Assembly (NCBI GenBank): GCA_902826615.1
Contig: CADEFN010000001.1
Coordinates: 620,001-684,000 of the forward strand
Length of the DNA: 64,000 bases
Direction of reading: 5' to 3'
Origin: an uncultured Gemmatimonadota bacterium
GTDB lineage: Bacteria; Gemmatimonadota; Gemmatimonadetes; Gemmatimonadales; Gemmatimonadaceae
In this document: positions 2,506-45,805 of the stretch, in pieces
Layout: each line of letters begins with the position of its first letter
Numbering within the stretch: position 1 is the first letter of the stretch
Notes under the pieces: generated by a model
What the model was told of the DNA's origin: nothing
Database searches by the model: none
The model's input: the letters and a program-made list of their open reading frames with translations, nothing else
Made by a program: the position numbers and the translations under genes

Positions 2506-2636
2506 GTGAGGCAAGGTAGTGTGGTGCGACGTTGGGTGGCAGCACGCTGACCGATGCGCCGCACTCGCATTTCGGGAGCTGGCTGCGCATCGTTCGGCTG
2601 GTACCAGCTTTGCCTCCAGCCTCGGCCGTCTGCTGC

Positions 2637-3254
2637 ATGTCACACCGGTTCGTATCCAATCGCGACGAGACGATACCACTCTTCGAGTCGGCCTGGCTCG
2701 AACGGCTGTCACATGTGCATCCCGCCGTCCCGCTGATGGTGTACGGGCCGGTGATCGTGTGGACAGTGGTGCAGGGATGGCCACGCATGGGATGGCAAGC
2801 GTTTGTGGCGCATGCCTGTGCCGGTCTGCTCATCTGGACGCTGGTGGAGTACGTGCTGCACCGCTGGGTCTTCCACTACACGCCGCGCAGCGTGGTCGGA
2901 CGGCGGCTGCACTTTCTCGCCCATGGTGTGCATCACGACTATCCGCGCGACAGCACCCGTCTGGTGATGCCTCCGGCGGTCAGCATTCCCATCGCCCTGG
3001 TTTTCTGGTGGCTCTTTCGCGCCGTGAGTGGCGACGCTGTCCACGCCGTCTTTTGCGGCTTTGTGCTGGGTTATCTCGCGTACGACACGCTGCATTTTGC
3101 CGTGCACCACTGGCCGATGCGTGGCCGGGTTGGCGCCTTTCTCAAAGCCTATCATCTCAAGCACCACTACCACGATGACCACACCGGCTATGGTGTGACC
3201 TCGCCGCTTTGGGACGTGGTGTTCCGGTCGGTGCCCCGGCGCGACGGGTCGTAG
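2637..3254 (+). CDS. fatty acid hydroxylase / sterol desaturase superfamily membrane protein
   Basis: The 205-residue product (ATG at 2637; an in-frame ATG at 2532 would add a non-conserved leader) has hydrophobic helices and the His clusters of the di-iron fatty acid hydroxylase superfamily: LHRWVFH, HFLAHGVHH, LHFAVHHW and YHLKHHYHD. These enzymes hydroxylate or desaturate lipid chains using O2. Yeast Scs7/FA2H, which 2-hydroxylates ceramide fatty acids, belongs to the family, and the gene lies directly beside a putative sphingolipid operon, so acyl-chain or sphingoid-base hydroxylation is a reasonable inference. It is transcribed toward that operon and its 3' end overlaps the glycosyltransferase gene antisense by 67 nt (3188-3254). 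Confidence 0.8.
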   Translation: MSHRFVSNRDETIPLFESAWLERLSHVHPAVPLMVYGPVIVWTVVQGWPRMGWQAFVAHACAGLLIWTLVEYVLHRWVFHYTPRSVVGRRLHFLAHGVHHDYPRDSTRLVMPPAVSIPIALVFWWLFRAVSGDAVHAVFCGFVLGYLAYDTLHFAVHHWPMRGRVGAFLKAYHLKHHYHDDHTGYGVTSPLWDVVFRSVPRRDGS

Positions 3255-4375
3255 TGGACGGCGTATCCGTCACCAACCCACCGAATGCGTCTGGTGATGG
3301 CAAAGGATACCGGGAGGAAGCAGAGGGCGGTGAGCTGCGCGAATTGCAGAATGATCAGCTGCCGCAGAGGAGCCACAAGGGCCGCACGTTGGGTGAGCAC
3401 GGTGAAGAGCAGGGCGTCGCCCACGAGTTTGCCAACAAACCCCGGAAGCCAGCGGTCGACACCCCAGAGCCATCCGGTCGCCGTCCACACCACGACCGCC
3501 AGTCCCCAAATCAGGATCAGCGCAAGCCCGACCGCGTAGGCCGGGTGGGGTTCCACTCCGCCGCCTAACCAGCGCCGCAGCTGACTGAAGATCAGCAGCG
3601 GCCGTCCCACAGGGTGTACTCCAACCAGGGTGGGTCGATCGCCGTAGAGCTGCACCTCTCCGCCGTCGGCGCGGGCCATGGCAAACAAGGCGAGGTCTTC
3701 GGCCACCGCAAATCGCGCGCGTTCGAGACCGCCATGCCGCAGGTAGACATCACGCCGAATTCCCATATTCGGGCCGATGCAGGCAAAGGGAGCGCCAAGT
3801 CCCGCGGCCGCCAGGCTGAAACACTGCAGAAAACCCTGCAACGCCCCTTCGATGTAGCCCCACCATGGACCGGGTCGCACCACGATGGTCCCTCCCACCA
3901 TCGTAGTCGCTGGCGTCAGGCGGCCGAGCAGGTGTCGCGCCCACTCTCTTGGTACGCGAGCGTCAGCATCGGTGATGAGCACCCAATCGCCGGTTGCATG
4001 CGCGATGCCGTGCGCCAGTCCACGAGCCTTGGCTTCGAGACCGTTGGACGGCAGACGTTCGGTATGCAGCGCCACGACATGCGCATGTTGCGCAGCCGCG
4101 GCGTCGACCAGCGCGCCGGTGGCATCAGTGGAGCGGTCGTCGACCAGCACCAGCTGCAGTCGATCTCCTGGGTAGTCGAGCGCCAGCAGGGAGTCGATAC
4201 AGGCCGGCAGCTCCGCCGCCTCGTTGCGCGCGGAGACGACCACCGAAACACTGGGACACTGCGCATCATCGAGCCGGCGTGAGCGCGGGAGCCGCATCAC
4301 ACCAACCAGGAGAATGGCCACCACCACCAGGTACGAGAGCGCGAGGAGCGTCACGGCCCGGGAAGGTTGAGCCAT
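3188..4375 (-). CDS. GT2/GT21-like membrane glycosyltransferase (ceramide glycosyltransferase candidate)
   Basis: The 395-residue product from the ATG at 4375 (MAQPSRAV) has an N-terminal membrane helix (about 8-28), a GT-A domain, and three or more C-terminal membrane helices. The motif order is that of processive GT2 and ceramide glucosyltransferase (GT21) enzymes: VDD (78-80), TDADA (135-139), AED (225-227) and QLRRW (265-269, the QxxRW motif). It overlaps the preceding epimerase-type gene by 25 nt, so it is the last gene of the four-gene operon. In that context it would add a sugar to ceramide or to another lipid product. A general GT2 role in glycolipid or polysaccharide synthesis cannot be excluded. 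Confidence 0.82.
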   Translation of the reverse strand: MAQPSRAVTLLALSYLVVVAILLVGVMRLPRSRRLDDAQCPSVSVVVSARNEAAELPACIDSLLALDYPGDRLQLVLVDDRSTDATGALVDAAAAQHAHVVALHTERLPSNGLEAKARGLAHGIAHATGDWVLITDADARVPREWARHLLGRLTPATTMVGGTIVVRPGPWWGYIEGALQGFLQCFSLAAAGLGAPFACIGPNMGIRRDVYLRHGGLERARFAVAEDLALFAMARADGGEVQLYGDRPTLVGVHPVGRPLLIFSQLRRWLGGGVEPHPAYAVGLALILIWGLAVVVWTATGWLWGVDRWLPGFVGKLVGDALLFTVLTQRAALVAPLRQLIILQFAQLTALCFLPVSFAITRRIRWVGDGYAVHYDPSRRGTDRNTTSQSGEVTP

Positions 4376-5340
4376 CCATGCTCGACATACCAGTCCCTTG
4401 TGGCGGCGAGCCCGTCCGCCAGCGCGATCCGCGGGCTCCACCCCAGCGCGGGAAAACAGCTCGGCTCACAGGTCCACGCGGCGGGACGGCTCAGGGCCAG
4501 CCTCCCCGACGACAGCAGCGGGGGGCGCGAGGCCCGGGTGAGGGTCGCCCACAGGTCACCCGCCAGCGCGCCGAGCTGGAGCAGCGAGGAGGGAACGGTG
4601 ACCTGCGGTGGGGTGCGACCCAGCGCATGGCCAACGGCATTGTAGAGTTCACCCCAGGTGAGGCGATGGGCCGCAACAACTCCGGTCTGTCCCGGGGCGG
4701 CAGGGTGCGTGGCCGCAATCAGCAGTGCCTCGACGCAATCGTGGACATGGACCAGCGAGAGCTGGTAATTCGGCCGCGTGGCATGCAGCGCGACAGGACT
4801 CAGCAACTGTCGGAACACCGCCAGAAAGTCACGATCATGTGGACCGTACACGGCAGCGGGCCGAACGATGACCACCGGCACCCGGTCTTTCGCGGCCCGA
4901 AGCAACGTTTCTGCTGCCAGTTTGCTTTCGCCGTACGGCTCGATGGGATGTGGTGCGTCGCTGTCGCGCACCGGCGCCTGCAAAGCCGGTCCTGCAGCCG
5001 CAAGGGAGGACACATGGATAACGCGCGGGGCGTGATTTCTGGCTGCGGCCATTTGGGCCAGCACGCCGGTTGGGACCACGTTCGCCTCGTGGTATTGGGC
5101 CCGCGTGTGCGCGCGCGTCAGTCCCGCCAGATGAAACAGATGGGTGGCGCCATCCCACACGGGTGACGCGATCGCCGTGGCTGCGTGGCGAAGGTCGACG
5201 CGATAGACATCGGCATCAGGTGGATACGTGGCCGTCGATTCGGGTCGAGCCAGCAAGCGCACAGCCGCACCGCGCTCTCTGAGCGCCGCTACGAGATTGG
5301 TTCCGATGAAACCCGAGGCGCCGGTGACAACCGCGATCAT
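4351..5340 (-). CDS. NAD(P)-dependent epimerase/dehydratase; 3-ketosphinganine reductase (CerR-like) candidate
   Basis: The 329-residue extended SDR protein has the dinucleotide motif GASGFIG (residues 7-13), a Ser pair at 111-112, and the catalytic YxxxK as YGESK (Tyr136, Lys140). The start overlaps the stop of the GNAT gene as ATGA. Extended SDRs act on nucleotide sugars, but also reduce lipid ketones: in Caulobacter the ceramide pathway uses an epimerase-family reductase, CerR, on the 3-keto product of serine palmitoyltransferase. Lying between the SPT/ceramide-synthase genes and a lipid-type glycosyltransferase, the CerR role is the best contextual call. Sugar epimerase remains the alternative. 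Confidence 0.75.
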   Translation of the reverse strand: MIAVVTGASGFIGTNLVAALRERGAAVRLLARPESTATYPPDADVYRVDLRHAATAIASPVWDGATHLFHLAGLTRAHTRAQYHEANVVPTGVLAQMAAARNHAPRVIHVSSLAAAGPALQAPVRDSDAPHPIEPYGESKLAAETLLRAAKDRVPVVIVRPAAVYGPHDRDFLAVFRQLLSPVALHATRPNYQLSLVHVHDCVEALLIAATHPAAPGQTGVVAAHRLTWGELYNAVGHALGRTPPQVTVPSSLLQLGALAGDLWATLTRASRPPLLSSGRLALSRPAAWTCEPSCFPALGWSPRIALADGLAATRDWYVEHGWLNLPGP

Positions 5341-6491
5341 GGCTCGGCGTCAGCCGGGTCGGTCAGCGCTCGCTCGTAAAGCCGCCATTTCATCGTTGGA
5401 GTGGCGCCCATCGCTCGCATGGGTTTCACGATCATCGTGTTGTCCTCGAGCAGCCACGACGCCTCAGCGCCCGAGCGGCCGCTGGCACGGCCCCGGCGCA
5501 TGAGTTCGTGCGCAAAAAGCGCCAGCACCCCCCGCGCGCGATACGACCGGCGCACACCGAGTGCAAACACACGAAGCCCCTTCCAGCGGGAACGATGCCA
5601 CAGCAGCCGCAACAGACCAAAGGGCAGGAGACGGCCACTCCGATGATGCTGCAACGTTTCGTTGTAGTCGGGCAAGGCCAGGCAAAAACCGGCCGGCGTT
5701 CCGTCTACCGATGCAATGAAGGAGAAACCCCGCGCCAGGAGAGGCTTCATGTCCATGGCGGAGTGGAGAAACTCCTCGCGTGTCATGGGCACAAAGCCCC
5801 AGTTGCGCTCCCACGCGTCGTTGTACATCTCCCAGCACAGATCGACATCGCGGTCGTAGTGCGCCATGTCCACGTCGCGAAACGTCACCCGACCGCGGCT
5901 CTGCGTGTGTTCGACCAGTCGCCGCAGGTACGCTGGCGGTTCGTAGTTCGCTCCCTCGACCGAAAACCAGAACGCCAGCAGATCCTGGGCCTTTGTCAGA
6001 CCGGCCGCGTGACACAGTGTGTCGTAGTACGGCGGATTCCACGCCGTCATGAACTGCGGCCGACGCTCGAAGCCTTCCACCAGCAATCCGCACTCGTAGT
6101 TGGTCCCCGGGTTCATGGGGCCCAGCATGGTGCGCAATCCCTTTCGTCGCAGCCAGTCACCCGCTGCCTTGAACAAGGCGTCTGCCACGGACTGATCGTC
6201 GGCACATTCAAAGAAGCCGAAGAAACCCGTCTGATCGTCATGAAAACGATTGTGGGCGCGATTCTCGATGGCGGCAATGCGACCCACCACCACGCCCGCA
6301 CGTTTCGCGAGGAACAGTGCGCATGACGCCTCACGCCAGAAGGGATGTGACGGTGCCAGCACATCCCGCACGCTCACGCGCAGCGGCGGCACCCAGTTGG
6401 GAAACGCGTCTCGCGGAAAGAGACGGAAGGGAAGATCGATGAACACTTCCCGGTCCCCCTTTGACGTCACCTCCTGCACCACCACGCTCAC
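5337..6491 (-). CDS. GNAT-superfamily acyltransferase; bacterial ceramide synthase (bCerS/YghO-like) candidate
   Basis: The 384-residue product is a double GNAT-like protein of the YghO type. The N-terminal half has GRIAAIENRAHNRFHDDQ and LGPMNPGTNYECG; the C-terminal half has a GNAT core ending in a helix with an R-x-x-G/A-like turn (GVRRSYRARGVLALF). It overlaps the fusion gene upstream and the SDR gene downstream, each by ATGA. Bacterial ceramide synthase of Caulobacter belongs to this GNAT family and N-acylates sphinganine; together with the SPT domain and the SDR reductase this makes a complete three-step ceramide route. The assignment rests on overall family resemblance and context, not on a diagnostic residue I can name. 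Confidence 0.72.
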   Translation of the reverse strand: MSVVVQEVTSKGDREVFIDLPFRLFPRDAFPNWVPPLRVSVRDVLAPSHPFWREASCALFLAKRAGVVVGRIAAIENRAHNRFHDDQTGFFGFFECADDQSVADALFKAAGDWLRRKGLRTMLGPMNPGTNYECGLLVEGFERRPQFMTAWNPPYYDTLCHAAGLTKAQDLLAFWFSVEGANYEPPAYLRRLVEHTQSRGRVTFRDVDMAHYDRDVDLCWEMYNDAWERNWGFVPMTREEFLHSAMDMKPLLARGFSFIASVDGTPAGFCLALPDYNETLQHHRSGRLLPFGLLRLLWHRSRWKGLRVFALGVRRSYRARGVLALFAHELMRRGRASGRSGAEASWLLEDNTMIVKPMRAMGATPTMKWRLYERALTDPADAEP

Positions 6492-9400
6492 GATGTGGTG
6501 ATGCTGAGCGGTTCGCGTGCTGCCGCGACACTGGCCATCGCCTGGGCCACCACGTCACCCGCGCGTCGGAGGTCGTCGGCGGTGTGCGACGCCGACACAA
6601 AGAGCCGCAACCGGGCGGCCCCTTCGGCAACTGCCGGTGGAATCATGGGTGGCACGTTGACCCCCAGTGCCCGGACGGCGGCCGATGCCCGAACCGCCGT
6701 CTCGGTATCGCCAACGATGATGGGCACCACGCCTGCGACCCCGGCTCGGCCTGTATTGAGGCCCAAGGCTGTGCAGTGAGCAACAAGTGTCCTGACATTC
6801 GCTTGCAGCTGCCTCACGCGCTCTGGCTCCGCGTGCAGCAGGCGCAGCGCCGCCAGTGCGGCTCCAGCCGCTGCCGGTGACAGCCCGACGCTGAACACAA
6901 AACCCGGTGCTGTTGTCTTGAGGTAGTTCACCAGCCCATGCCGACCGGCGATGTATCCCCCGGTGCTGCACAACGCCTTGCTCAGTGTCCCCATCCAGAT
7001 GTCCACGCGTCGGGGATCCACACCGGCGTGCTCGGCGAGTCCGCGACCGGTGGCGCCGAGCACACCCGTCGCATGGGCTTCGTCGACCATGAGCAGGGCG
7101 TGGTGTCGCTCGCACAGCTGGAGAAAGCGCTCGAGTTCGGGGATGTCGCCGTCAGCGCTGTACACGCCTTCGATGACCACCAGGGCGCGCCGGTAGCGAA
7201 AGCGCATGCGGTGCAGCTGGTGGTCGAGCGCCTCCCAGTCGTTATGCGGGAACGACACTACACGCGCGCCCGAGAACGTGGCACCCTGCATTGCGCTGTT
7301 GTGCACCAGCGCATCGACGCAGATCAGATCGTCGCGCCCCATGAGATGCGCGATCGTCGTGACATTCGTGGCATGCCCGCCCACAAAGGTGAGCGCATCG
7401 TCCACACCCGTCAGTGCCGCCAGCTCTGCCTCGAGCGCATGGTGCACCGGACGCCCGCCGGCCACCAGACGGCTGGCAGAAACCGTGGTGCCCCACCGCT
7501 CGATGGCCTCCTGCGCTCCACGGATCACCTCGACATGTCCGGCAAGGCCAAGGTAGTCATAACTCGCAAAGTTCAGGAGCGTACGGCCTCCCACGGTCGT
7601 CATCCGGCCGCTGATCCCCTCGTGCACCTGGAAAAAGGTGTCGGGTCCGGCCACGTCGAGCAGGGCAGCGCGTCGTCGTTCTGCGGCCGCCACTTCGGGC
7701 CAGGCGTCAACATCGGCCGTCTGCGGATCGACATGTCCGTCGGAGTGCCAGGGCGATGCTCGCTCCTCGCCAACCAGGGCGTGCACCATGGCCGCGATGT
7801 CGCGATGGTCCCACAGCTCAGCGGTCGTGACACGCCGCTCGAGTCGCTCTTCGAGGGCCAGCGAGAGATGTGTGACGCCCAGCGAGTCGAGCCCGAGTTG
7901 CCGCAGGGACATGTGCGGCAGCACGGCATCGGGTTTGAGTGTCAGCTCCTGCGTGACCCAATCGATCACAAAGGCCATGAGCGACTCGGCGGGCGGCGCC
8001 GCATCGGCATTCGGTCGCCGCCAGTCGTGCACGATGTCCAGGACATCGTCGCTGCAGGCTGCTCGGCATGCCTGACGCCGAAGTTTGCCACTCGATGTTC
8101 GCGGCAAAGTGTTGGCGCGCACCAGGATCACCCGGTCTGCGCCCACACCGGTGGCACCAGCTACCGCGGAACGAATGGCGTGACAAACGGCGCCGTTCAG
8201 CTCGGGTCGGTGCTGTCTGATCACTTCGGCCACCACGATCAGTTGCTCGACCCCCTGCTGAATGGTGCTGAACGCCGCGACTCCACTGGCGCGAACCGAT
8301 GGATGCGCACGCGAGGCCGCCAGCTCGATGTCTTGCGGGTAGATGTTGCGCCCCGCGATGATCACCAGATCCTTCAGTCGGCCGGTGACCACCAGCTGCC
8401 CCGCCTCGAGCGTGCCGAGGTCGCCCGTCTTCAGCCAGTGCCGAGTATCGTCAGGCAGGCGGGCGTGAAAGGTGGTCGCGCTCAGCTCGGGGCGAGCCCA
8501 ATAGCCCCCGGCTACGCTGCCACTCGATACCCAGATCTCGCCGACGCTCCCTTCATTAAGAGGCATCCCGCTATCCGGATCGACGATGGTGACGGCAACC
8601 TCGGGATCGGGGGTGCCGCACGAAACGGCCGCGTCGTCAGTTGCTGCGGCATGTGCGGCGACGCCACCGGCGACGAGGAGCGTGGCTTCGGCCAGGCCGT
8701 AACACGGAAAGAGCACGTCGCGCCCCAAACCAGAGGCAGCAAAACACTGGTAGAAGCGCTCGATCGTTTCCGCCCGCACAAACTCGGCGCCATTAAAGCC
8801 CACACGCCATGCCGAGAGATCGAGCGACCGGCGCTCCGCCTCCGAGATGCGATCGACGCAGAGGTCGTACGCCGAATTCGGGGCACTGGTGGTTGTGGCG
8901 CGCGTCGCGGACATGGCCTCGAGCCACCGCGCGGGCCGCTGCAGAAAGGTGGCCGGCGCCATGAGCGTGGCCGGGACATGAGCATACACCGGCTGGATGA
9001 TGCCCCCGATGAGCCCCATGTCGTGAAAGGGCGGCAGCCAGAAAACTGCCCGGTCGCCTTCACGATGCGCGGTGACGCGATGAATGATGCGCGAGTTGTG
9101 GAGCAGGTTGTCATGCGTGAGCATGACGCCACGCGGCTCGCTGGTGGAGCCAGACGTGTACTGCAGCATGGCGAGTGTGCCACCGGTGATCTGGGCGCGT
9201 TCGGTGGGACCTGGTGCCGGCTCGGTGATGAGACGGTGAATGTCGAGCGTTCGAAGCGTGCGAAGTGCGGTGGCCCCCGACAACCATCCCTCACCTCGGG
9301 ACAACAGGGCGCGAGTGACGAGGGCTATGCGCGCATCGCAATCGGTGACGAGATGCGACAGTCGTGGATCGCCGCGCCGCGGATGGGGTGGGTAGGCCGG

Positions 9401-9703
9401 GACCGCTACCACGCCCGCCACCAGACAGCCAAAAAACGCGACGATGTACTCCAGCCCCGGCGGCACCAGGAGGAGGACACGCTCGCCCGGGACCGTGTGC
9501 TCCCTCAGGTGGGCGGCGACGCGATGGGCCTGTGTGTCGAGCTCCTGGTACGTGAGTGTGCCGTCGGTAATGCCGTCGCCAACCAGGAAGGTGAAAACCG
9601 TATCGTTAGGCTGTCGAGCAGCCCGGTAGGCGAGCACGTCCACAAGAGTGCGGACGCCAGCGGCTCGCGCATCGTCTGGCAGCAGGGGCGGGGGCATGTG
9701 CAT
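6488..9703 (-). CDS. trifunctional fatty acyl-AMP ligase - acyl carrier protein - serine palmitoyltransferase-like fusion
   Basis: One 1071-residue chain (ATG at 9703, a second ATG at 9697) carries three domains. Residues 1-570 are a fatty-acyl-AMP ligase: QYTSGSTSEPRG (181-192), WLPPFHDMGLIGG, the YGLAEA motif (335-340) and a C-terminal subdomain with SGKLRR. Residues 575-645 are an acyl carrier protein with LGLDSLG, phosphopantetheine Ser607. Residues 680-1071 are a PLP alpha-oxoamine synthase (SPT/KBL/AOS family) with VDEAHATG (Asp874, His877) and the Schiff-base Lys909 in GTLSKALCSTGG. A fatty acid would be activated as AMP ester, loaded on the ACP and condensed in cis with an amino acid, probably serine, to a 3-keto-amine. 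The first gene of the operon; usually these are separate proteins. 8-amino-7-oxononanoate-like or secondary-metabolite synthesis is the alternative. Confidence 0.85.
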   Translation of the reverse strand: MHMPPPLLPDDARAAGVRTLVDVLAYRAARQPNDTVFTFLVGDGITDGTLTYQELDTQAHRVAAHLREHTVPGERVLLLVPPGLEYIVAFFGCLVAGVVAVPAYPPHPRRGDPRLSHLVTDCDARIALVTRALLSRGEGWLSGATALRTLRTLDIHRLITEPAPGPTERAQITGGTLAMLQYTSGSTSEPRGVMLTHDNLLHNSRIIHRVTAHREGDRAVFWLPPFHDMGLIGGIIQPVYAHVPATLMAPATFLQRPARWLEAMSATRATTTSAPNSAYDLCVDRISEAERRSLDLSAWRVGFNGAEFVRAETIERFYQCFAASGLGRDVLFPCYGLAEATLLVAGGVAAHAAATDDAAVSCGTPDPEVAVTIVDPDSGMPLNEGSVGEIWVSSGSVAGGYWARPELSATTFHARLPDDTRHWLKTGDLGTLEAGQLVVTGRLKDLVIIAGRNIYPQDIELAASRAHPSVRASGVAAFSTIQQGVEQLIVVAEVIRQHRPELNGAVCHAIRSAVAGATGVGADRVILVRANTLPRTSSGKLRRQACRAACSDDVLDIVHDWRRPNADAAPPAESLMAFVIDWVTQELTLKPDAVLPHMSLRQLGLDSLGVTHLSLALEERLERRVTTAELWDHRDIAAMVHALVGEERASPWHSDGHVDPQTADVDAWPEVAAAERRRAALLDVAGPDTFFQVHEGISGRMTTVGGRTLLNFASYDYLGLAGHVEVIRGAQEAIERWGTTVSASRLVAGGRPVHHALEAELAALTGVDDALTFVGGHATNVTTIAHLMGRDDLICVDALVHNSAMQGATFSGARVVSFPHNDWEALDHQLHRMRFRYRRALVVIEGVYSADGDIPELERFLQLCERHHALLMVDEAHATGVLGATGRGLAEHAGVDPRRVDIWMGTLSKALCSTGGYIAGRHGLVNYLKTTAPGFVFSVGLSPAAAGAALAALRLLHAEPERVRQLQANVRTLVAHCTALGLNTGRAGVAGVVPIIVGDTETAVRASAAVRALGVNVPPMIPPAVAEGAARLRLFVSASHTADDLRRAGDVVAQAMASVAAAREPLSITTS

Positions 9704-26970: not shown

Positions 26971-29127
26971 ATGGCACAGAACAACGACAAAATCCCGTAC
27001 CTGCCCCAGCGGATCGAAGGCCTCGGGGCCGTAGCCACCAACCTGAGTTGGAGCTGGAATCGCAACGCGCGCCGTCTCTTCGGCATGCTCGACGAGTCGC
27101 TCTGGCACCTCACCCGGCACAACCCGATCGCTCTACTCAGGCGGATGGACCCGAGCCAGCTGAGTGAGGCTGCACGGAATCCCCAGTTTCTCAACCTCTA
27201 CGACCGCGTGATGGAGGAATTCCATCGCGAGCAGTCGTTCTCGGATACCTGGTTCTACCAGCAATACGCCGATCTCAAGGACCGCCAGATCGCCTACTTC
27301 TGCGCCGAGTTCGGGTTGCACAACTCGGTCCCCATTTACTCGGGTGGTCTTGGCGTGCTCGCGGGGGACCACTGCAAATCATCCTCCGATCTGGGCGTTC
27401 CGCTGGTCGGCATCGGCCTCTACTACCAGAAGGGGTACTTCGACCAGAAGCTGAACCTCGAGGGGATGCAGGAGGACTCCGACGAGCAGTTCGACGTCGC
27501 TAACACGCCACTCGAACGGTTGTACGGACCAGGCCGCGAGCCTTACCTCACGAAGGTCAGCACCTTTGGCCGCGACATCTACGTCGGCGCGTGGCGCATG
27601 CATGTCGGGCGGGTGCCGGTCTACCTGCTGGACACCGATCTCGAACAGAATGATCCGGCCGATCGCGATCTGACGTCGAAGTTGTACACGGGTGGACCCG
27701 AGGTGCGGCTGCGGCAGGAGTGGATTCTTGGCGTCGGTGGCGTGCGGGTGCTGCGGGCCGTTGGAGTTACGCCGTCAGCATGGCATGCCAACGAGGGACA
27801 TGCGGCCTTCATGCTGGTGGAGCGAATCCGCGAGTTATGCGTAGCGGGGACGCCGTTCGAGGAGGCCGTGCAGCAGGTTCGCGCCCACAGCATTTTCACC
27901 ACCCATACCCCGGTGCCAGCCGGTCACGACGCCTTCGATTTCGGCAAGGTGGAGCAGTGCACGGGCCCGGTGTGGAATGAGATGTCGATTCCGAAGGAAA
28001 CGTTCTTCGGCATCGGCCAGCACCCGACCGAGAATCGCTCGCAGTTCCAGATGACGGTGTGCGCGCTGCGGCTGTCGCGTTACGTGAATGGCGTCGCACG
28101 CAAACATGGTGAAGTTTCGCGCGAGATCTGGGCGCCCCTCTGGCCTGATCGCGACGTCACCAAGGTGCCCATCGGCCATGTCACCAACGGTGTGCACAAG
28201 GCCACCTGGATGGCGCGCGAGCTGATGGATCTCTTCGATCACGAGTTCGGGCACGAATGGCCGAATCACGTGGGCGACGTGTCGTTCTGGGAGCGGGTCC
28301 TCGACATCGATGATGTGAAGCTCTGGAATCTCCACACAGAGCTCAAGAGCGGCATGATGACGTTTGTGCGCGAAGAGGCTCGGCGACGCTGGGCGCGGTA
28401 CTGGAAAGAGGCGTCACACGTGGTCGGCGCTGGAACGTTGCTCAACCCGAGTGCGCTCACCATCGGCTTCGCGCGCCGGTTTGCCACCTACAAACGCGCC
28501 AACCTGATCTTCAAGGACGCCGAACGACTGCGCGCCCTGCTGGTGAATGCCACCCGCCCGGTGCAGATCATTTTCGCCGGCAAGGCACATCCCGCCGACA
28601 ACCCGGGCAAGGAAGTCCTGCGCTCGGTTTTCTCCTACACGCGTGATTCCCGCTTCGAAGGCCGTGTGGCCTTCATTGAAGACTACGAACTGCATCTGGC
28701 GCATCGCCTGGTGCAGGGCGTCGACCTGTGGCTCAATCTCCCGCGCGTGCCGCTCGAGGCGAGCGGAACGAGTGGCATGAAGGCGGCCCTGAACGGTGTG
28801 CCCCAGCTCTCCACTCTTGATGGCTGGTGGCACGAGGGCTACGACGGTCTCAACGGATGGGCAATTCCCCCGGCATCATCGCGGGCGACCCCTGACGACT
28901 GGGACGCCGACCACTTCTATCGTTTGCTCGAGGAGCAGGTGGTGCCGCTCTACTATGAGCGGAACGACCGGGGGGTCCCGCACGGGTGGATTCAGAAAAT
29001 GAAGCACGCGATCCGTGTGGCTGGACAACAGTTCACTTCCCGGCGCATGCTCATGAACTACGGTCGGCTCTACTATGTCCCGGCAATGCGCGGGGACCTG
29101 GGGTCGGACGATCCGCCCACGGCATGA
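26971..29127 (+). CDS. glgP: alpha-glucan (glycogen) phosphorylase, GT35
   Basis: The 718-residue protein is of the shorter alpha-glucan phosphorylase subfamily (TIGR02094 type), with AYFCAEFGLHNSVPIYSGGLGVLAGDH split over residues 109-135, SAWHANEGHAAF, RFATYKRANLI and the PLP-binding GTSGMKAALNG (Lys604). It removes glucose units from storage glucan as glucose-1-phosphate. It heads an operon with glycogen synthase and two GH57 enzymes, so both breakdown and synthesis are encoded together. The promoter looks leaderless. Confidence 0.93.
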   Translation: MAQNNDKIPYLPQRIEGLGAVATNLSWSWNRNARRLFGMLDESLWHLTRHNPIALLRRMDPSQLSEAARNPQFLNLYDRVMEEFHREQSFSDTWFYQQYADLKDRQIAYFCAEFGLHNSVPIYSGGLGVLAGDHCKSSSDLGVPLVGIGLYYQKGYFDQKLNLEGMQEDSDEQFDVANTPLERLYGPGREPYLTKVSTFGRDIYVGAWRMHVGRVPVYLLDTDLEQNDPADRDLTSKLYTGGPEVRLRQEWILGVGGVRVLRAVGVTPSAWHANEGHAAFMLVERIRELCVAGTPFEEAVQQVRAHSIFTTHTPVPAGHDAFDFGKVEQCTGPVWNEMSIPKETFFGIGQHPTENRSQFQMTVCALRLSRYVNGVARKHGEVSREIWAPLWPDRDVTKVPIGHVTNGVHKATWMARELMDLFDHEFGHEWPNHVGDVSFWERVLDIDDVKLWNLHTELKSGMMTFVREEARRRWARYWKEASHVVGAGTLLNPSALTIGFARRFATYKRANLIFKDAERLRALLVNATRPVQIIFAGKAHPADNPGKEVLRSVFSYTRDSRFEGRVAFIEDYELHLAHRLVQGVDLWLNLPRVPLEASGTSGMKAALNGVPQLSTLDGWWHEGYDGLNGWAIPPASSRATPDDWDADHFYRLLEEQVVPLYYERNDRGVPHGWIQKMKHAIRVAGQQFTSRRMLMNYGRLYYVPAMRGDLGSDDPPTA

Positions 29128-29138
29128 GGTAATCGGGA

Positions 29139-30899
29139 ATGCCAGCACGCAAGAAGTCACCGCCCCCTGCCGGGGACGCGGCGCCAAAAGCGAGGAAGAA
29201 AACGCCCAAGCAGTCGGCGGCAATTCCCGAACCCCAGGTCGTCGTGCCCGTCGAGCCGGCCAAACTTCCGGTGGTAGCCGAGCCGGTGAAGCCGGCGGCA
29301 CCGCCGGCCAAACGGCCCGCTCGCAAAGTTGCCAGCAAGACGCCAGCGCCCGCTGCCGACAAAGCGGCGGCAGCCCACGTGGGTGCGGCGGTGGTGCCGG
29401 AGCCCACGTATCCACTCGTGTCTCCGGCCGGCGAGCCGGTGCACGTCGTCCATGTGGCCGCCGAACTGGCACCATTTGCCCGCACCGGTGGACTCGGCGA
29501 GGCAGTGGCAAACCTTGCGCTGCAGCAGATCCAGTCCGGGCTCAAGGTGGCGATCATCATGCCACTGTACAAACAGGCGCGTGATGTGGTGAGCGACTTC
29601 GTGGCGGTGGGCGAACCCTTCCAGGTGCCGATTGCGGGACGGACAGAGACGGCGCAGCTGTATGAGTCCGAGGGGCTGCGCGCACGCCAGGGCGAGGGCA
29701 AGCCGCGTGTGTACTTCGTGGCCAATGGTCACTACTTCGATCGCGAGGGCATCTATGGCGACAAGCAGGGTGACTATGGCGACAATGCCGAACGCTGGGG
29801 CTTTTTCGCTCTGGCAGCACTCAACGTTCTGCCACTGGTGGCCGAAGCCCCGGTGATGCTGCACCTGCATGACTGGCATACCGCGCTGGCAGCGGCGTAT
29901 CTGCGCGCCTTTGACTCCGGCAAACCGTTTTACCGGAAGACCTGGGTGACCCTCACCGTGCATAACGCGGGGTATCAGGGGCACTTCCCGCCAGAGACAA
30001 TGGCCACCGTCGGTCTCCCGTGGGAGTTCTACAATCAGCACATGTTCGAGTGGTATGACCGCATGAACCTGCTCAAGGGCGGTCTGGCCTGTGCCGACGT
30101 GGCCACAACGGTGAGCCCCACACATGCCCACGAGTTGCGAACACCCGCCGGAGGCTTTGGCCTCCACGGACACTTCATCGCCATGCGCGAGCGATTTGTC
30201 GGGGTGCTCAACGGCATCGACAACAACGACTGGAATCCGGCCACCGACCCGCACATCGCCGCGAACTATTCGCTCGACAGCCTCAGCAACAAGCGGAAGT
30301 GCAAAGCGGCGCTGCAGAATATCTTTGGACTCCCGCAGCGACCAGGCACGCCGATCATCGGCATGTCGGCGCGGATGGTGGCACAGAAGGGGCTCGACCT
30401 CATCCTCGGCTCCCCGGCGTTTCTCTCGCTCGATGCCCAGTTCATTTTCCTCGGGCAGGGCGAAAAGCGATACATCGACGTGTTGCGAGAGCTGGCGGCG
30501 TATGCCCCCGGCCGCATTGGTGTGCAGACAAACTTCACGGTGGAAGTCGAGCATCGCCTTCTTGCGGGCGCCGACATGATCGTGATGCCCTCGCAATACG
30601 AACCGTGCGGCCTCACGCAGATGCGTGCCCAGCGGTATGGCACCATTCCGATTGCGCGTCGCGTGGGTGGTCTGGCGGACACCATCGATGACAACGTGAC
30701 CGGGTTCCTCTTCGACGAGTACACCTCGCAGGCCTTTCTCAACGCCTGTGCCCGGGCCATCGACCACTATCGGTACCCGCAGGTGTGGACGTCTATGGTG
30801 CGTGAGGCCATGGGCCGCGACTTCGGCTGGCACAAGTCCGAGGCGCGATACCGCGACCTCTACCGGCGAGCCATCGCCTCGCCACGCTGGAGACGTTAG
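29139..30899 (+). CDS. glgA: glycogen/starch synthase, GT5, with N-terminal Ala/Pro/Lys extension
   Basis: The 586-residue product is about 100 residues longer than E. coli GlgA: residues 1-97 are a low-complexity Ala/Pro/Lys-rich extension, likely flexible. The GT5 core follows, with HVAAELAPFARTGGLGEAV, LHLHDWHTALAA, LTVHNAGYQG, GMSARMVAQKGLDL and YEPCGLTQMRAQRYGT. The nucleotide-sugar-binding K-x-G-G-L motif reads RTGGL (Arg115), so the usual Lys is Arg, which could affect ADP- versus UDP-glucose use. Second gene of the glycogen operon; its TAG stop lies in a CGTTAGGC motif. Confidence 0.92.
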   Translation: MPARKKSPPPAGDAAPKARKKTPKQSAAIPEPQVVVPVEPAKLPVVAEPVKPAAPPAKRPARKVASKTPAPAADKAAAAHVGAAVVPEPTYPLVSPAGEPVHVVHVAAELAPFARTGGLGEAVANLALQQIQSGLKVAIIMPLYKQARDVVSDFVAVGEPFQVPIAGRTETAQLYESEGLRARQGEGKPRVYFVANGHYFDREGIYGDKQGDYGDNAERWGFFALAALNVLPLVAEAPVMLHLHDWHTALAAAYLRAFDSGKPFYRKTWVTLTVHNAGYQGHFPPETMATVGLPWEFYNQHMFEWYDRMNLLKGGLACADVATTVSPTHAHELRTPAGGFGLHGHFIAMRERFVGVLNGIDNNDWNPATDPHIAANYSLDSLSNKRKCKAALQNIFGLPQRPGTPIIGMSARMVAQKGLDLILGSPAFLSLDAQFIFLGQGEKRYIDVLRELAAYAPGRIGVQTNFTVEVEHRLLAGADMIVMPSQYEPCGLTQMRAQRYGTIPIARRVGGLADTIDDNVTGFLFDEYTSQAFLNACARAIDHYRYPQVWTSMVREAMGRDFGWHKSEARYRDLYRRAIASPRWRR

Positions 30900-30910
30900 G
30901 CGCCGGGAGC

Positions 30911-32599
30911 ATGGCGCAGACGGACTTTGTGCTCATGCTCCACAGCCACCTGCCGTACGTGCTCAACCACGGCCGGTGGCCCCACGGCAGCGACTGGCTC
31001 TGCGAAGCCGCGCTCGATACCTACCTTCCGCTCCTCGAGCAGCTGCAGGCCCTCGAGGCGCGCGGTGTTGCGGCACCCGTCACGCTGGGCTTCACCCCGG
31101 TGCTCGCGGCCATGCTCGCGCATCCGACGTTTTGGCAAGAGCTGGACGACTACCTCGCACAGCGGCTCGATGCCTGTGCCAGCGCCCCGGCTGCCTTTAC
31201 CGCGACCGACGACGAAGTCCTGCTGCCGGTGGTTCGCTGGTGGGAGTCGCGGTTGCGCCGACTGCGCACGCTGCGGGACTCCATCGATGGCAACCTGATC
31301 GCGGCCTTTCGTGGTCTGCAGGATCGTGGACGGCTGGAGATCACGTCGTCCGCGGCCACCCATGGCTTTCTCCCTCTCCTCGGTCGCGACGAAAGTATTC
31401 GGCTGCAGCTGCTGCTTGGACGTGCCGAACACCGCGCCCACTTCGGTCGCGACCCCGAGGGATGCTGGGTCCCCGAGTGTGCGTATCGTGGCGCCGGGGA
31501 GTGGCACCCCTATCCGCATGCCGTCAACACCGGTTTCCGACGCGGGCTGGAATCGCATCTGGCCGACACCGGCTATCGCTACTTCTTTGCCGATTCGCAC
31601 ATGGCGCGGGCCGGTGAGCCGTTAGGCGTGTATGGAGCGCGGTTCGGGTTGCCCCCCGATTTGCGAAAGCCGGCCGGGAATGGCGAGCTGCGGCAGCACA
31701 CCCCACATGTCGCGTACCGGGTCACCGGCATCGACGATGCTCGTCAGGTGGCGGCCTTTGTGCGCGATCCCCGGTCATCGGAGCAGGTGTGGAATCGCTA
31801 CGGCGGATACCCTGGTGACGGAGTGTATCTCGAGTTCCACAAGATTCGTTGGCCCGAAGGACTCCGCCTCTGGCGCGTGACGTCACGCGAGCACGACCTG
31901 GGTGACAAGGCCGTGTATGTGCCTGACGAGGCGGTGGCGCGCACGCGCACACACGCGGCGCACTTCGCCGCACTCCTCGGCGAGCTGCACGACGTCCGCC
32001 CGCGCCACGAGGGCTCGGTGATCGTCGCGCCCTTCGATACGGAACTGCTCGGCCACTGGTGGTTTGAAGGCCCGGAGTTCCTCGGAGCGCTCTACAGTGC
32101 GCTCCCCGAGCAGCACGGCATTCGGGCAGCAACCGCGGCGCAACATCTCGATCAGCATGGCACACCGGCGGCCCTCCCACTGGTGGATGGATCGTGGGGC
32201 AAGGACGGGGACTACTCCATGTGGATGAGCGACGAGGTCGCCTTCACCTGGCCAGTCATCTGGGAGCTCGAGAACAGATTCTGGAACACTGCACGTCAGG
32301 CGCTGGCGGTTCCTTCGCTTCATGGCGTGCTGGCACAGGCTGCCCGATCACTTCTTCTCCTGCAGTCCTCCGACTGGCAGTTCATCATCACCACTGGCGC
32401 CGTCGCGGATTACGCCACAGCGCGGTTTGAGGGACATGCCGCAGACTGCACCGAGTTGTTGGGCATTCTCGCCGATGGTCTGGCGGGTCACGATGTGGGG
32501 CGTGGCGTCGCGCGTGCGGCCGAGCTTCATGCGCGCGACGATCTCTTTCGCGACATCCTCCCTTCAATAGAGCAGGCGCTCAGGGTTTCCGTCTCGTGA
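30911..32599 (+). CDS. GH57 1,4-alpha-glucan branching enzyme
   Basis: The 562-residue protein has the GH57 signatures of the TK1436-type branching enzymes: HSHLPY (11-16), catalytic Glu189 in GCWVPECAYRG, the acid/base Asp376 in APFDTELLGHWW, and a C-terminal helical domain with LLLLQSSDWQF. It would make alpha-1,6 branches in glycogen. It follows glgA by 11 nt and overlaps the next GH57 gene (GTGA). Confidence 0.88.
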   Translation: MAQTDFVLMLHSHLPYVLNHGRWPHGSDWLCEAALDTYLPLLEQLQALEARGVAAPVTLGFTPVLAAMLAHPTFWQELDDYLAQRLDACASAPAAFTATDDEVLLPVVRWWESRLRRLRTLRDSIDGNLIAAFRGLQDRGRLEITSSAATHGFLPLLGRDESIRLQLLLGRAEHRAHFGRDPEGCWVPECAYRGAGEWHPYPHAVNTGFRRGLESHLADTGYRYFFADSHMARAGEPLGVYGARFGLPPDLRKPAGNGELRQHTPHVAYRVTGIDDARQVAAFVRDPRSSEQVWNRYGGYPGDGVYLEFHKIRWPEGLRLWRVTSREHDLGDKAVYVPDEAVARTRTHAAHFAALLGELHDVRPRHEGSVIVAPFDTELLGHWWFEGPEFLGALYSALPEQHGIRAATAAQHLDQHGTPAALPLVDGSWGKDGDYSMWMSDEVAFTWPVIWELENRFWNTARQALAVPSLHGVLAQAARSLLLLQSSDWQFIITTGAVADYATARFEGHAADCTELLGILADGLAGHDVGRGVARAAELHARDDLFRDILPSIEQALRVSVS

Positions 32600-34644
32600 A
32601 GCGACATCTCATCATTCACTCGCACTTCTACCAGCCGCCGCGCGAGAATCCGCTCTTCGACGACGTGGACGCCGAGCCGAGTGCTGCGCCCTACCACGAC
32701 TGGAACCAGCGCATCGAACGCGAGTGTTACCGTGCCGTGACAGCGGCCCGCATCAATGCCGATCAGGGCCGCATCATCAGGGTGGTGAACACGCTCGAGT
32801 GGATGTCGTTCAACGTCGGGGCCACGTTGTTCGAGTGGATGGAGCAACACGCCACCGACACGTATCAGCGCATTCTCGAGGCCGATCACGCGAGTGTGGT
32901 CCGACTCGGCTACGGGAACGCGATGGCGCAGCCCTACCACCATGTCATTCTCCCGCTGGCTTCACGCCGGGACAAGGTCACAGAAGTGCGCTGGGGCAAG
33001 GCCGACTTCCGCCGCCGCTACGGTCGTGACCCGCAGGGCATGTGGCTTCCCGAGACCGCCGTCGATGACGAAACCCTCGATGTCCTGGCGCAGGAAGGGA
33101 TCACCTTCACGGTCCTGGCACCCTACCAGGTGAAAGCAGTTCCTCCTGACGGACGCCCGGGCCGATATGTGACGGAAAACGGGCGGGAGATTGCGCTCTT
33201 TCCATACCATGGCGACATGTCGCATGGCATCGGCTTTGGTGGTCTGGTGCGCGACACCGGGGCGTGGCTGCAAGCCATCCACGGTCAGTCACCATCAGCC
33301 CGCGCCGAAGGCGATGCGCCCGCCACGTCAAACGATCCTCTGCTTGTTTCGGCCGCCACCGATGGTGAGACCTACGGGCACCATCACAAGTTTGCCGAAA
33401 TGGCATTGGCCTATGTGCTGGAGCAGTCGCGGGCACGCGGCACCGTGGTGACCAACTACGCGGCATTCCTCGCCCAGTATCCCGCAACACACGAGGTGGA
33501 GCTGGTGGCGCCGAGTGCGTGGAGCTGCGCGCATGGTGTGGAACGGTGGCGCTCAAACTGCGGCTGCCGCATGGACACACGCGCCAACCCCAGCCAGGAG
33601 TGGCGCACTCCGCTCCGTGACGGTCTCGATGCGCTGGCCGCGGGACTGCACGACGTGTTCGAGAAGGAAGGCGCGTCCTGTTTCACCGATCCCTGGACGG
33701 CACGGGACCACTATGGCGAGATCGTCGGATCGCGCGATCCCCATGTGCGCAACACGGTCCTCGGTCGTCTCATGCGTCCCGGTCTTTCGGCCGAGGCGAG
33801 GGCGCGTGGTGTGGAGCTGCTGGAGATGGAACGCGATGCGCTGCGGATGTTTACCTCGTGCGCCTGGTTTTTCGACGACATCGGGGGGATCGAGCCGCGT
33901 CAGGTGTTGCGGTATGCCTCACGTGCGGTGGCGTTGTCGGGGGCGGCGGCCACGCTGGAACCACCACTGCGCGCCACGTTAGGCACGGCGACCAGCAACC
34001 AGACATCTGTGGGCAATGGCGCGCGGGTGTATGACGAGATCGCACACGCCATCGCTGCCCCGGTGCGTGTGGCGGCCGCGGCGGCAGCGCTGCGGGCCTT
34101 CGCCCTCGATGTGGAGCATCACCTTCCCCCGGGTTACGATGCCACCGTGGACGGCCACGTGGTGCACGTGGTGTCGCGGCAAACCGGACGCGCAGAAACC
34201 TTTCAGGTGTCGGAGATGCGACGTTCGGCCGCCGATGTTGCCTACCGCGTCACCGCTGGCACCTCGGTCACCGAAGTGCCCCTGGGCGAGCTGCCCGAGC
34301 GGGCGCGACTGGGTGTGCGGGGCGCATTGCGGCGCGCGTTATTGCCCAGGTGTCTCACGGCACACGAACTGGATCATCTCGCCAGCGGAGAGGCCTCATT
34401 CCGTGGTCTGGTCGCCGTCGCGCTCACCCGCGCCGTCTCCCGCCTGAGTGGGGGAATTACCCACGACCGACTGGACGTCGCCGACGCTGCGCTCGACCTC
34501 TTCGTCCAGCTCGAGACCAACATTCCCTTCGACGCACAGACCGCTTTCTGGACGGTGTGGCAGCGGGCGTCAGCGACAGATAGGACTCGCATCCAATCGC
34601 TTGGTCTCAGACTCGGCTTTCAGGCGTCGGAAACGGGCCGATGA
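32596..34644 (+). CDS. GH57 family glycosidase with DUF3536 C-terminal domain
   Basis: The 682-residue product starts at a GTG overlapping the previous stop. The N-terminal half is GH57: HSHFYQPPRENP, Glu153 in GMWLPETAVD and Asp256 in SAATDGETYGHH. The C-terminal half, with CSCAHGVERWRSNCG-like Cys-containing residues near 300-320 and an all-helical tail, matches DUF3536 proteins, which accompany bacterial glycogen genes. Probably an alpha-amylase, 4-alpha-glucanotransferase or debranching-like activity on glycogen; no member activity is assumed. Last gene of the glycogen operon. Confidence 0.82.
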   Translation: MKRHLIIHSHFYQPPRENPLFDDVDAEPSAAPYHDWNQRIERECYRAVTAARINADQGRIIRVVNTLEWMSFNVGATLFEWMEQHATDTYQRILEADHASVVRLGYGNAMAQPYHHVILPLASRRDKVTEVRWGKADFRRRYGRDPQGMWLPETAVDDETLDVLAQEGITFTVLAPYQVKAVPPDGRPGRYVTENGREIALFPYHGDMSHGIGFGGLVRDTGAWLQAIHGQSPSARAEGDAPATSNDPLLVSAATDGETYGHHHKFAEMALAYVLEQSRARGTVVTNYAAFLAQYPATHEVELVAPSAWSCAHGVERWRSNCGCRMDTRANPSQEWRTPLRDGLDALAAGLHDVFEKEGASCFTDPWTARDHYGEIVGSRDPHVRNTVLGRLMRPGLSAEARARGVELLEMERDALRMFTSCAWFFDDIGGIEPRQVLRYASRAVALSGAAATLEPPLRATLGTATSNQTSVGNGARVYDEIAHAIAAPVRVAAAAAALRAFALDVEHHLPPGYDATVDGHVVHVVSRQTGRAETFQVSEMRRSAADVAYRVTAGTSVTEVPLGELPERARLGVRGALRRALLPRCLTAHELDHLASGEASFRGLVAVALTRAVSRLSGGITHDRLDVADAALDLFVQLETNIPFDAQTAFWTVWQRASATDRTRIQSLGLRLGFQASETGR

Positions 34645-43275: not shown

Positions 43276-45699
43276 ATGAAACTGGTGCTGGCTGTTGCAG
43301 CGGTTGGCGCTGCACTCGCGCTGACGTCCGAAGGGGCACCACCCAGGCCGCGGTTGCCGTTGACCGGCCATTCTCCCTCGCGTCGCGCGGCTGACGTGGC
43401 CGCGTTGGACGACGTGGTGCAGCGGTACTGCGCCGCGAGTTGCCACAGCGCCACGCAGAAGCGCGGGAATCTTTCCCTGGCGGGCTTCTCGGTGGGTGGT
43501 GCGCACAGCAACGTCGTTGTCTCTGAAAAGATCATCCGCAAACTGCGCGCGGACATGATGCCTCCACCGGGTTCGCGGCGGCCAAAGGGCGACAGCCTTG
43601 CCTCGCTGGCCACGACGCTCGAGGAGACGATTGATCGGGCGGCGCCGGTGAACCCGGGGAGCCGGCCATTTCAGCGGATGAATCGCCCCGAGTACGAGCG
43701 CGCGATTCGCGACCTGTTCGGCGTGGAGATCAGCGCCGGTGACTATCTCCCGCTCGACACCAAAAGTGCCAACTTCGACAACATCGCCGATGTCCAGGCG
43801 ATGTCGCCGACCCTGCTCGAGGCCTACCTCAACGCAGCCGCCGCGGTTTCGCGCATCGCCGTGGGCGATCGCAGTGCGGCCCTGACGCAGGGGGTCTACA
43901 AGACTTCTCCCTTTGCGTCGCAACATCCGTGGGATCACGTTGAGGGCACACCGTATGGCGCCCGCGGTGGGATTGCCATGACCCACAGCTTCCCCGCAGA
44001 CGGTGAATACGAGTTCAAGATCAACATCGGGGGTGGCACTGCGGGCCGCTTCGAGGACATCGACATCACGATCGACGGGGTGCAGGTCGCCCAGCTGATG
44101 TACGAAAAGGGGATCGCGCGCAACGGTGCGTCGGCCGATGCCCCGGCGGGAGCCGACTGGGTGCGCAGCGAGCCGCTGAAAATCGCCGCTGGGCAGCACA
44201 AGGTGTCGGTGGCCTTCATTCGCCGTTCCGAAGGCCCGTACGAAGATCTCATCAAGCCGCACGACTGGTCACGCGCATCGGCCGGCACGGCCAGCACGGG
44301 AAGCACCGAGTTGCCTAACGTGATGGAAGTGGCCATCACGGGCCCGCGCAACGTGACGGGCATCTCCGAAACCGAAAGTCGACGCCGCATCTTCACCTGC
44401 CGGCCCACCGGCAAGGCGGCACAACGTGCCTGCGCCGCGCAGATCATCTCGCGGCTCGGCACTCGCGCCTGGCGGCGTCCCCTCACCGAACGTGAGCGGA
44501 GCAGCCTGCTTGGGTTCTACGATCGCGCGGCCGCGGCCGGAACGCCGGTGGCCTTCGAGGATGGGGTGCGCACGGCACTGCAGGCGATGCTGGCCAGTCC
44601 GCAGTTTGTCTTCCGTTTCGAGCCGGTGCCGGCCGGTCTGGCGGAAGGGTCGGATTACAAGCTCAACGATTTCGAGCTCGCCTCGCGGCTCTCGTTTTTC
44701 CTATGGGGGACGATTCCCGACGACCGGCTGCTGACCCTCGCGCGAGAGAAGCGACTGTCGGCTCCGGCCGTCTTCGAGCGCGAGGTCAAACGCCTCCTGG
44801 CCGATGCGCGCGCCGAAGCACTGTCCACACGCTTCGCCGCCCAGTGGTTGCGTCTCCAGGACCTGGAGAAGGTGCACCCAGATGCCTTCTTCTTCCCCGA
44901 TTTCGACCTGCAGCTGGCCAACGCCATGCAGCGCGAGACCGAACTGCTCTTCAATGACATCGTCCGCAGTGACCGCAACGTGCTCGACCTGCTCACGGCT
45001 GACTACACTTTTGTCAACGAGCGGCTGGCCCGTCACTACGGCATTCCGGACGTCGCAGGTCCCGAGTTCCGGAAGGTGATGTACCCCGACGAGTCACGTC
45101 GTGGTATTCTCGGTCATGGCAGCATCCTGGTGCAGACCTCGTTAGGTAATCGCACCTCGCCGGTGCTTCGCGGCAAGTGGGTGATGGAGGTGCTGCTGGG
45201 CACACCCCCACCGCCACCACCGCCCAACGTGCCGGACCTCGAGCAGACCGTGGGATCCAAAGACGGCAAGGTGCTCACCACGCGGCAGCGCATGGAGATG
45301 CATCGCGCCAACCCGACGTGCAAATCGTGTCACCAGTACATGGACCCACTCGGCCTGGCCCTCGACAACTTCGATGTCACGGGCAAACTGCGCTATCGGG
45401 AGAACGGCGCCGCGCTCGACACGCGGGGCCAGACCTACGACGGCACCAACGTCGCCACCGCGGCCGAACTGAACCGCTGGCTGGTGTCACGCCCCGCGCC
45501 GCTGGTCCGCTCGTTCACGGAGAACCTCATGGCCTACGCCATCGGACGCCGCGTCGAGGACTACGACCAGCCGACGGTCCGCGCGATCACCCGCGACGCC
45601 CAGGCCAGGCAGTATCGCTTTTCATCGTTTGTGATGGGTGTAGTCAACAGCCAGGCCTTCCGCAGCAAGCGAGTGGAGGCGGTGGCGGATTCTCCGTAG
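43276..45699 (+). CDS. DUF1587/1592/1588/1585-type cytochrome-like protein
   Basis: The 807-residue exported protein matches the planctomycete-type multi-domain family: an N-terminal cytochrome-like segment with YCAASCHS, then DUF1587 (MNRPEYERAIRDLFG), DUF1595 (GTRAWRRPLTERER), DUF1592 (ELASRLSFFLWGTIPDD; DFLLTADYTFVNERLARHYGI-like), DUF1588 (RTSPVLRGKWVMEVLLG; CKSCHQYMDPLGLALD) and DUF1585 at the C-terminus. The first motif is C-x3-C-H (Cys52, Cys56, His57), not the usual CxxCH. It is first in an operon with a DUF1552 protein, the standard partner. The role of the pair is unknown; a periplasmic redox function is suggested. Confidence 0.87.
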   Translation: MKLVLAVAAVGAALALTSEGAPPRPRLPLTGHSPSRRAADVAALDDVVQRYCAASCHSATQKRGNLSLAGFSVGGAHSNVVVSEKIIRKLRADMMPPPGSRRPKGDSLASLATTLEETIDRAAPVNPGSRPFQRMNRPEYERAIRDLFGVEISAGDYLPLDTKSANFDNIADVQAMSPTLLEAYLNAAAAVSRIAVGDRSAALTQGVYKTSPFASQHPWDHVEGTPYGARGGIAMTHSFPADGEYEFKINIGGGTAGRFEDIDITIDGVQVAQLMYEKGIARNGASADAPAGADWVRSEPLKIAAGQHKVSVAFIRRSEGPYEDLIKPHDWSRASAGTASTGSTELPNVMEVAITGPRNVTGISETESRRRIFTCRPTGKAAQRACAAQIISRLGTRAWRRPLTERERSSLLGFYDRAAAAGTPVAFEDGVRTALQAMLASPQFVFRFEPVPAGLAEGSDYKLNDFELASRLSFFLWGTIPDDRLLTLAREKRLSAPAVFEREVKRLLADARAEALSTRFAAQWLRLQDLEKVHPDAFFFPDFDLQLANAMQRETELLFNDIVRSDRNVLDLLTADYTFVNERLARHYGIPDVAGPEFRKVMYPDESRRGILGHGSILVQTSLGNRTSPVLRGKWVMEVLLGTPPPPPPPNVPDLEQTVGSKDGKVLTTRQRMEMHRANPTCKSCHQYMDPLGLALDNFDVTGKLRYRENGAALDTRGQTYDGTNVATAAELNRWLVSRPAPLVRSFTENLMAYAIGRRVEDYDQPTVRAITRDAQARQYRFSSFVMGVVNSQAFRSKRVEAVADSP

Positions 45700-45710
45700 G
45701 GGCGTATCCA

Positions 45711-45731
45711 GACGGCAGACGGCAGACGGCA
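45711..45731. repeat. 7-bp tandem repeat GACGGCA, three units
   Basis: Three exact GACGGCA units plus a degenerate fourth (GAAAGGCA) sit in the 106-nt gap between the DUF1592 and DUF1552 genes. Same heptamer at 49268-49288, 49371-49398 (reverse) and 50441-50482. Confidence 0.8.
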
Positions 45732-45805
45732 GAAAGGCAGCCCGAGCCATCGGGAGTTGGTGGTGCGAGACCGGCATTCGTGAACCATTCACCAGGATCA
45801 AGGCG

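Follow-up and report, generated by a model that had tools for sequence, protein, structure and literature searches.

A FAAL-ACP-AOS fusion that probably replaces SPT in a predicted ceramide-type operon of the Gemmatimonadaceae

The potential of bacteria to make sphingolipids is usually called from homologs of SPT. In Caulobacter, E. coli B and Sphingomonas, SPT is part of a tripartite AasR-AcpR-SPT system that operates together with CerR and bCerS/YghO; AasR acylates AcpR only, not CoA, and SPT prefers acyl-AcpR (PMC9386255). The order proposed for the ceramide pathway is acylation followed by reduction (PMC11087976), and distant 'Spt-like' proteins have already been accepted when bCerS and CerR are encoded nearby (PMC11334938), a group to which the fusion described here may or may not belong. 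In E. coli BL21, yghO adjoins an operon of a fatty-acyl-AMP ligase (FAAL), an epimerase (cerR), an acyl carrier protein (ACP) and spt.

Here we describe a four-gene operon from an uncultured member of the Gemmatimonadaceae, found in a window of 64,000 nucleotides (the whole stretch of DNA that was analysed), whose proteins match those of E. coli BL21 one-to-one. Its ligase, carrier and condensing domains, the last a PLP-dependent alpha-oxoamine synthase (AOS), form one chain. The operon is probably a ceramide-type cassette in which this FAAL-ACP-AOS fusion replaces SPT, its reactions, amino acid, sugar and product being predictions.

The operon and its gene products

All four genes lie on the minus strand, in the order fusion (6488-9703), GNAT (5337-6491), SDR (4351-5340) and glycosyltransferase (3188-4354), and all three junctions are overlaps of 4 nt, the last of them counted with the glycosyltransferase start at GTG 4354 (388 aa), not with the longer ORF start at 4441. 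This arrangement, like the 1071-residue FAAL-carrier-AOS chain that heads it, was part of the original prediction, and the coordinates, Pfam domains and junctions all bear it out. Read from its ATG, the fusion ORF encodes 1071 aa, or 1159 aa if translation began at the in-frame TTG at 9967. The FAAL domain spans approximately residues 1-570 (AMP-binding, E 4.6e-68), the carrier 575-652 (PP-binding, 5.9e-9) and the AOS 680-1071 (Aminotran_1_2, 1.9e-46), an assignment drawn from Pfam, NCBIfam, a check of positions, PDB sequence matches and the E. coli BL21 operon proteins. The carrier serine and the PLP lysine are where they had been predicted, at Ser607 (in LGLDSL) and Lys909 (in GTLSK), when both positions are checked in the sequence. 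The FAAL domain is 34% identical to the FAAL of the E. coli BL21 operon (E 2e-75), and its best PDB matches are all FAALs (7r7g, 3kxw, FadD32, FadD23 and 3pbk), with CoA synthetases such as 8weu scoring far below them; the carrier domain gives a short match to the ACP of the same E. coli operon that is not significant by itself. The fusion is present in a single copy in the 5.9-Mb genome. Misassembly was ruled out, as other Gemmatimonadaceae genomes contain the fusion in full or nearly so, in most cases at 55-58% identity.

The proteins predicted to act after the fusion are, as originally proposed, a YghO-like GNAT, an extended SDR and a GT21-like glycosyltransferase, on which homology and Pfam domains agree. 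The GNAT (384 aa), a predicted ceramide synthase of the YghO/bCerS type, is 34% identical to E. coli YghO over residues 1-376, i.e. nearly its full length (E 2.5e-67), and also gives a weak match to Pfam Acetyltransf_1. It is the only YghO-like GNAT in the window genome, and a search of the PDB with it gave no useful match. The SDR (329 aa, with a YxxxK motif), a predicted 3-keto reductase, is 29% identical to the CerR of the E. coli operon (E 1e-19), a relation that is pairwise and not a placement in a CerR tree, and is the best CerR match in its genome (64 bits, compared with 38 for the next). The membrane glycosyltransferase carries a QxxRW motif and is best called GT2/GT21-like: its match to Glyco_transf_21 (PF13506; 2.2e-11, 44 bits) exceeds the cut-off of 21.7 bits, and Glycos_transf_2 (PF00535; 6.5e-24) scores higher. 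A search on bacterial GT21 returned nothing.

Convergent with the operon lies a gene absent from the gene list of the original prediction (2532-3254, plus strand), which encodes an SCS7/FA2H-type fatty-acid/ceramide hydroxylase. It matches Pfam FA_hydroxylase (PF04116, 1.4e-15), its only significant PDB matches are to the yeast ceramide hydroxylase SCS7 (4zr0 and 4zr1, E 7e-28 and 3e-28), and its sequence holds the histidine clusters HX4H, HX3HX2HH, HX3HH and HX2HH. Homologs occur in five of the 43 Gemmatimonadaceae genomes tested, all five of which have yghO, and in two of the 12 genomes with a fusion; one relative (L056) repeats the whole arrangement of the operon, convergent hydroxylase included. 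Farther along the window, on the plus strand, lie genes of glycogen/maltodextrin type (26971-34644: a phosphorylase, a starch synthase, a GH57 branching enzyme and a DUF3536/GH57 protein) and, at 43276-47203, a gene for a DUF1592/1588/1587/1595/1585 protein with one for a DUF1552 protein after it.

Lineage and occurrence of the condensing enzyme

The PLP domain of the fusion belongs to a carrier-linked AOS lineage and is not by descent the SPT that had originally been supposed. In a maximum-likelihood tree of 68 AOS sequences, the known SPTs and the stand-alone SPTs of Gemmatimonadota form one clade (support 100/99) without the window domain, which falls into another (100/100) made up of FAAL-ACP fusions from Gemmatimonadaceae, Planctomycetota and others together with PKS-linked AOS. 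An AU test rejected the grouping of the fusion AOS with SPTs (p 6e-37, the comparison having been framed after the tree was seen), and in an earlier tree the window domain likewise lay outside the SPT clade. It also lies outside the BioF, KBL and ALAS groups, which rules out these identities; the other AOS of the window genome groups with KBL. Among the groupings that had been named as arguing against a sphingolipid role, those with BioF or KBL are thus not observed, whereas the domain does cluster with FAAL- and PKS-linked synthases, a placement that in part counts against the original prediction. It is 32% identical to the SPT of E. coli BL21 (E 2e-52) and reaches 284 and 270 bits with the two best-scoring NCBIfam SPT models, whose cut-offs of 640 and 500 bits are also missed by Gemmatimonadota SPTs placed by the tree (485-542 and 406-421 bits, respectively). 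The catalytic residues, i.e. those aligned with K265 (PLP lysine), H159 (stacking His), D231 and H234 (Asp/His pair) and R390 (carboxylate Arg) of Sphingomonas SPT, are all kept and are common to all AOS.

What occupies the position of SPT in related genomes? The canonical spt-yghO-cerR operon is widespread in Gemmatimonadota. YghO-like genes are found in 210 of the 395 sampled genomes of the phylum, the order SPT-GNAT-SDR at seven Gemmatimonadota loci (L181-L183, L185, L186, L193 and L194), and GNAT and SPT neighbours without an adjoining SDR at five more, in Gemmatimonadaceae. Within this family, yghO is borne by 23 sampled genomes from 14 genera; 12 of them carry the fusion without a canonical SPT (genera g1, g2, g4, g7, g9, g10 and g26; best other AOS at most 275 bits), 11 have a canonical SPT and no fusion (genera g3, g8, g15, g20, g22, g28 and g29; SPT at 452-995 bits), and none has both, with the proviso that some of these assemblies are fragmented and that a missing gene is not proven absence in every genome. 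If independence is assumed, so complete a division would arise by chance with a probability of 7e-7 when genomes are counted and 3e-4 when genera are, both values being weakened by relatedness. The GNATs of the fusion loci and the SPT-adjacent GNATs of Gemmatimonadaceae form a single clade (support 100/100). Nine of the 12 fusion genomes have the GNAT on the same contig as the fusion and ten have an SDR homolog there, and a homologous glycosyltransferase adjoins the fusion in four. Because fusion and canonical SPT are mutually exclusive in the sampled yghO-bearing genomes of the family, the former can be taken to stand in for the latter, in what appears to be a non-orthologous displacement of canonical spt.

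Two further observations concern YghO-like genes. Four of them (L191, L192, L196 and L197) fall into the clade of the window GNAT with no AOS within the stretch examined, and in two relatives a beta-ketoacyl synthase gene adjoins the GNAT of the fusion locus (L118:10971-12329 and L041:7754-9199).

Proposed pathway and its alternatives

Taken together, we would give a probability of roughly 0.75 to the reading that a glycosylated lipid of the ceramide type is the product of the operon, with the fusion doing the job of SPT from another AOS lineage and having displaced canonical spt. Against this reading weigh the position of the AOS domain outside the SPT clade, its better score with the BioF model than with SPT models, its altered pocket, its PKS-linked relatives and the small number of fusion genomes with an adjoining homologous glycosyltransferase (four of 12) or with the hydroxylase (two of 12). 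The sphingolipid cassette of the original prediction is thereby retained in its gene set (YghO/bCerS and CerR homologs, FAAL with ACP, and a glycosyltransferase), gains an SCS7-like hydroxylase and loses its SPT, so that the support for a sphingolipid comes from gene context and not from the identity of the PLP domain. Each reaction in the following scheme, along with the amino acid, the sugar, the transfer in cis and the lipid itself, is predicted from what the sequences show, namely domain content, homology, the order of the genes, the position in the tree and an occurrence that excludes canonical SPT. A free fatty acid would be adenylated by the FAAL domain and transferred to the phosphopantetheine arm of the carrier domain of the same polypeptide, after which the AOS domain would condense the carrier-bound acyl thioester with an amino acid, for which serine is the likeliest candidate, to yield CO2 and a 3-keto long-chain base. 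This base would next be N-acylated by the YghO-like GNAT, its ketone reduced by the CerR-like SDR and its 1-hydroxyl glycosylated by the glycosyltransferase; hydroxylation of the acyl chain may fall to the SCS7-like enzyme encoded convergently.

Could the amino acid be one other than serine? With alanine, glycine or cysteate, the sphingoid-like base would end up in 1-deoxy- or sulfono-type N-acyl lipids and the glycosyltransferase would act on some other acceptor. The AOS family accepts several amino acids, and the pocket of the window domain carries clade-specific changes relative to SPTs (Ala160 for Asn, Tyr/Phe135 for what is mostly His, and Ser392 for Phe), by reason of which serine is not readable from the sequence. 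Furthermore, 1-deoxysphingolipids have been reported in bacteria (PMC11334938). We nevertheless regard a non-serine product as unlikely, since within the Gemmatimonadaceae GNATs of a single clade are accompanied now by the fusion, now by canonical SPT, which suggests an equivalent product, and since a ceramide glycosyltransferase requires the 1-hydroxyl that serine supplies.

Less likely again, and by a good measure, is a secondary-metabolite cassette, in which acylation, reduction and glycosylation would turn the aminoketone into a specialised metabolite instead of a membrane sphingolipid. Close relatives of the window AOS do adjoin polyketide synthases, its clade holds PKS-linked enzymes (from Paraburkholderia and in large frames of Streptomycetaceae), and PKS, AOS, SDR, YghO and GT21 are combined at one locus of a distant Gemmatimonadota genome; occurrence is moreover patchy, three congeners having no YghO match. 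However, no PKS or NRPS gene adjoins the window operon, and full-length bCerS and CerR homologs, a canonical-like gene order, exclusivity with spt and the SCS7-like neighbour all speak for a membrane lipid. Finally, that the AOS domain is the BioF of biotin synthesis among incidental neighbours is scarcely credible: BioF is indeed the top NCBIfam model for the isolated domain and no BioF-like AOS apart from it came up in the genome under the thresholds applied, but the score (363 bits) is below the BioF cut-off (426), the domain is outside the BioF group in the tree and fused to a lipid-type FAAL, and the operon contains no biotin gene.

If the glycosylated ceramide-type lipid is indeed the product, a ceramide operon that is ordinary in other respects employs a condensing enzyme that does not belong to the clade of known SPTs, and surveys based on SPT may therefore miss or misname producers. 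In that case the AOS superfamily has probably evolved SPT function on more than one occasion. Do bacteria make sphingoid bases directly from a free fatty acid on a dedicated carrier? The fusion would be a simple system in which to test this, and the Gemmatimonadaceae hold both versions, fusion and canonical SPT, for comparison.

Relation to other fusions and to known systems

The original prediction overstated its case, in that the unfused AasR-AcpR-SPT system already provides a CoA-free route (PMC9386255) and the architecture also occurs in other organisms. A search for FAAL-ACP-AOS proteins recovered them from Gemmatimonadaceae relatives and from public genomes of several other phyla, and among 14 named genomes of other phyla that match a FAAL or the fusion, 11 have a YghO-like gene. 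In five planctomycete-type regions examined (up to 14 kb), no AOS was found beside a YghO-like gene. Replacement of SPT by the fusion was not adopted for Planctomycetota, as the genome of Blastopirellula marina contains, in addition, a CerR-like SDR with a stand-alone AOS next to it (L201).

Three loci of this wider group depart from the window arrangement. In one relative, a 1649 aa frame (L119:7600-12546, plus strand) reads FAAL-ACAD-ACP-AOS, and the acyl-CoA dehydrogenase unit that separates FAAL from ACP in it suggests desaturation on the carrier before condensation. In a distant Gemmatimonadota genome (L122:497-15441, plus strand), genes for a PKS, a carrier-clade AOS, an SDR, a YghO-like GNAT, an outer-membrane efflux protein and a GT21 are consecutive, and a possible product is a polyketide-primed sphingoid lipid. 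On a plasmid of Paraburkholderia dioscoreae (L161:172-10824, plus strand), a type I PKS and an LpxC-like deacetylase are found with an AOS 54% identical to the window domain and a GNAT. The inserted unit of the first locus and the PKS upstream in another lead us to raise, tentatively and with more doubt than conviction, the idea that the FAAL-ACP-AOS clade consists of separate assembly-line long-chain-base synthases, in which the carrier-bound chain would be modified before condensation to give bases, possibly from another amino acid, that canonical SPT does not make.

How, then, does the window operon compare with what has been described? In the set of papers searched, none names FAAL and SPT together, although descriptions outside that set may exist, and the text of the eLife survey of FAALs does not mention aminotransferase or oxoamine synthase partners. 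Fusions of the same domains in the same order, with an AOS of the window clade, occur in Planctomycetota and Chloroflexota, and cyanobacteria have a FAAL and a separate AOS of that clade; unlike the window operon, none of these has yghO within the flanks examined (<=6 kb), and the planctomycete fusions examined are surrounded by housekeeping genes. BioWF (PMC9544090) is likewise a natural fusion of an acyl-activating enzyme (pimeloyl-CoA synthetase) with an AOS domain (AONS), but it works through a CoA thioester in the biotin pathway and has no carrier domain. The canonical Gemmatimonadota spt-yghO-cerR operon shares with the window a related GNAT, a CerR-like SDR and the condensing enzyme in first place, and differs in having a stand-alone SPT instead of the fusion, with no FAAL or ACP homolog in the adjoining stretches examined. 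All five components of the AasR-AcpR-SPT system, namely acyl-AMP ligase, carrier, enzyme of decarboxylative condensation, GNAT and epimerase-family reductase, have counterparts in the window operon, in which, by contrast, a single chain holds ligase, carrier and condensing enzyme, the last of non-SPT lineage, and a glycosyltransferase gene is included. The CoA-free, acyl-ACP logic is thus already known from AasR-AcpR-SPT; the fusion would concentrate it in a single chain.
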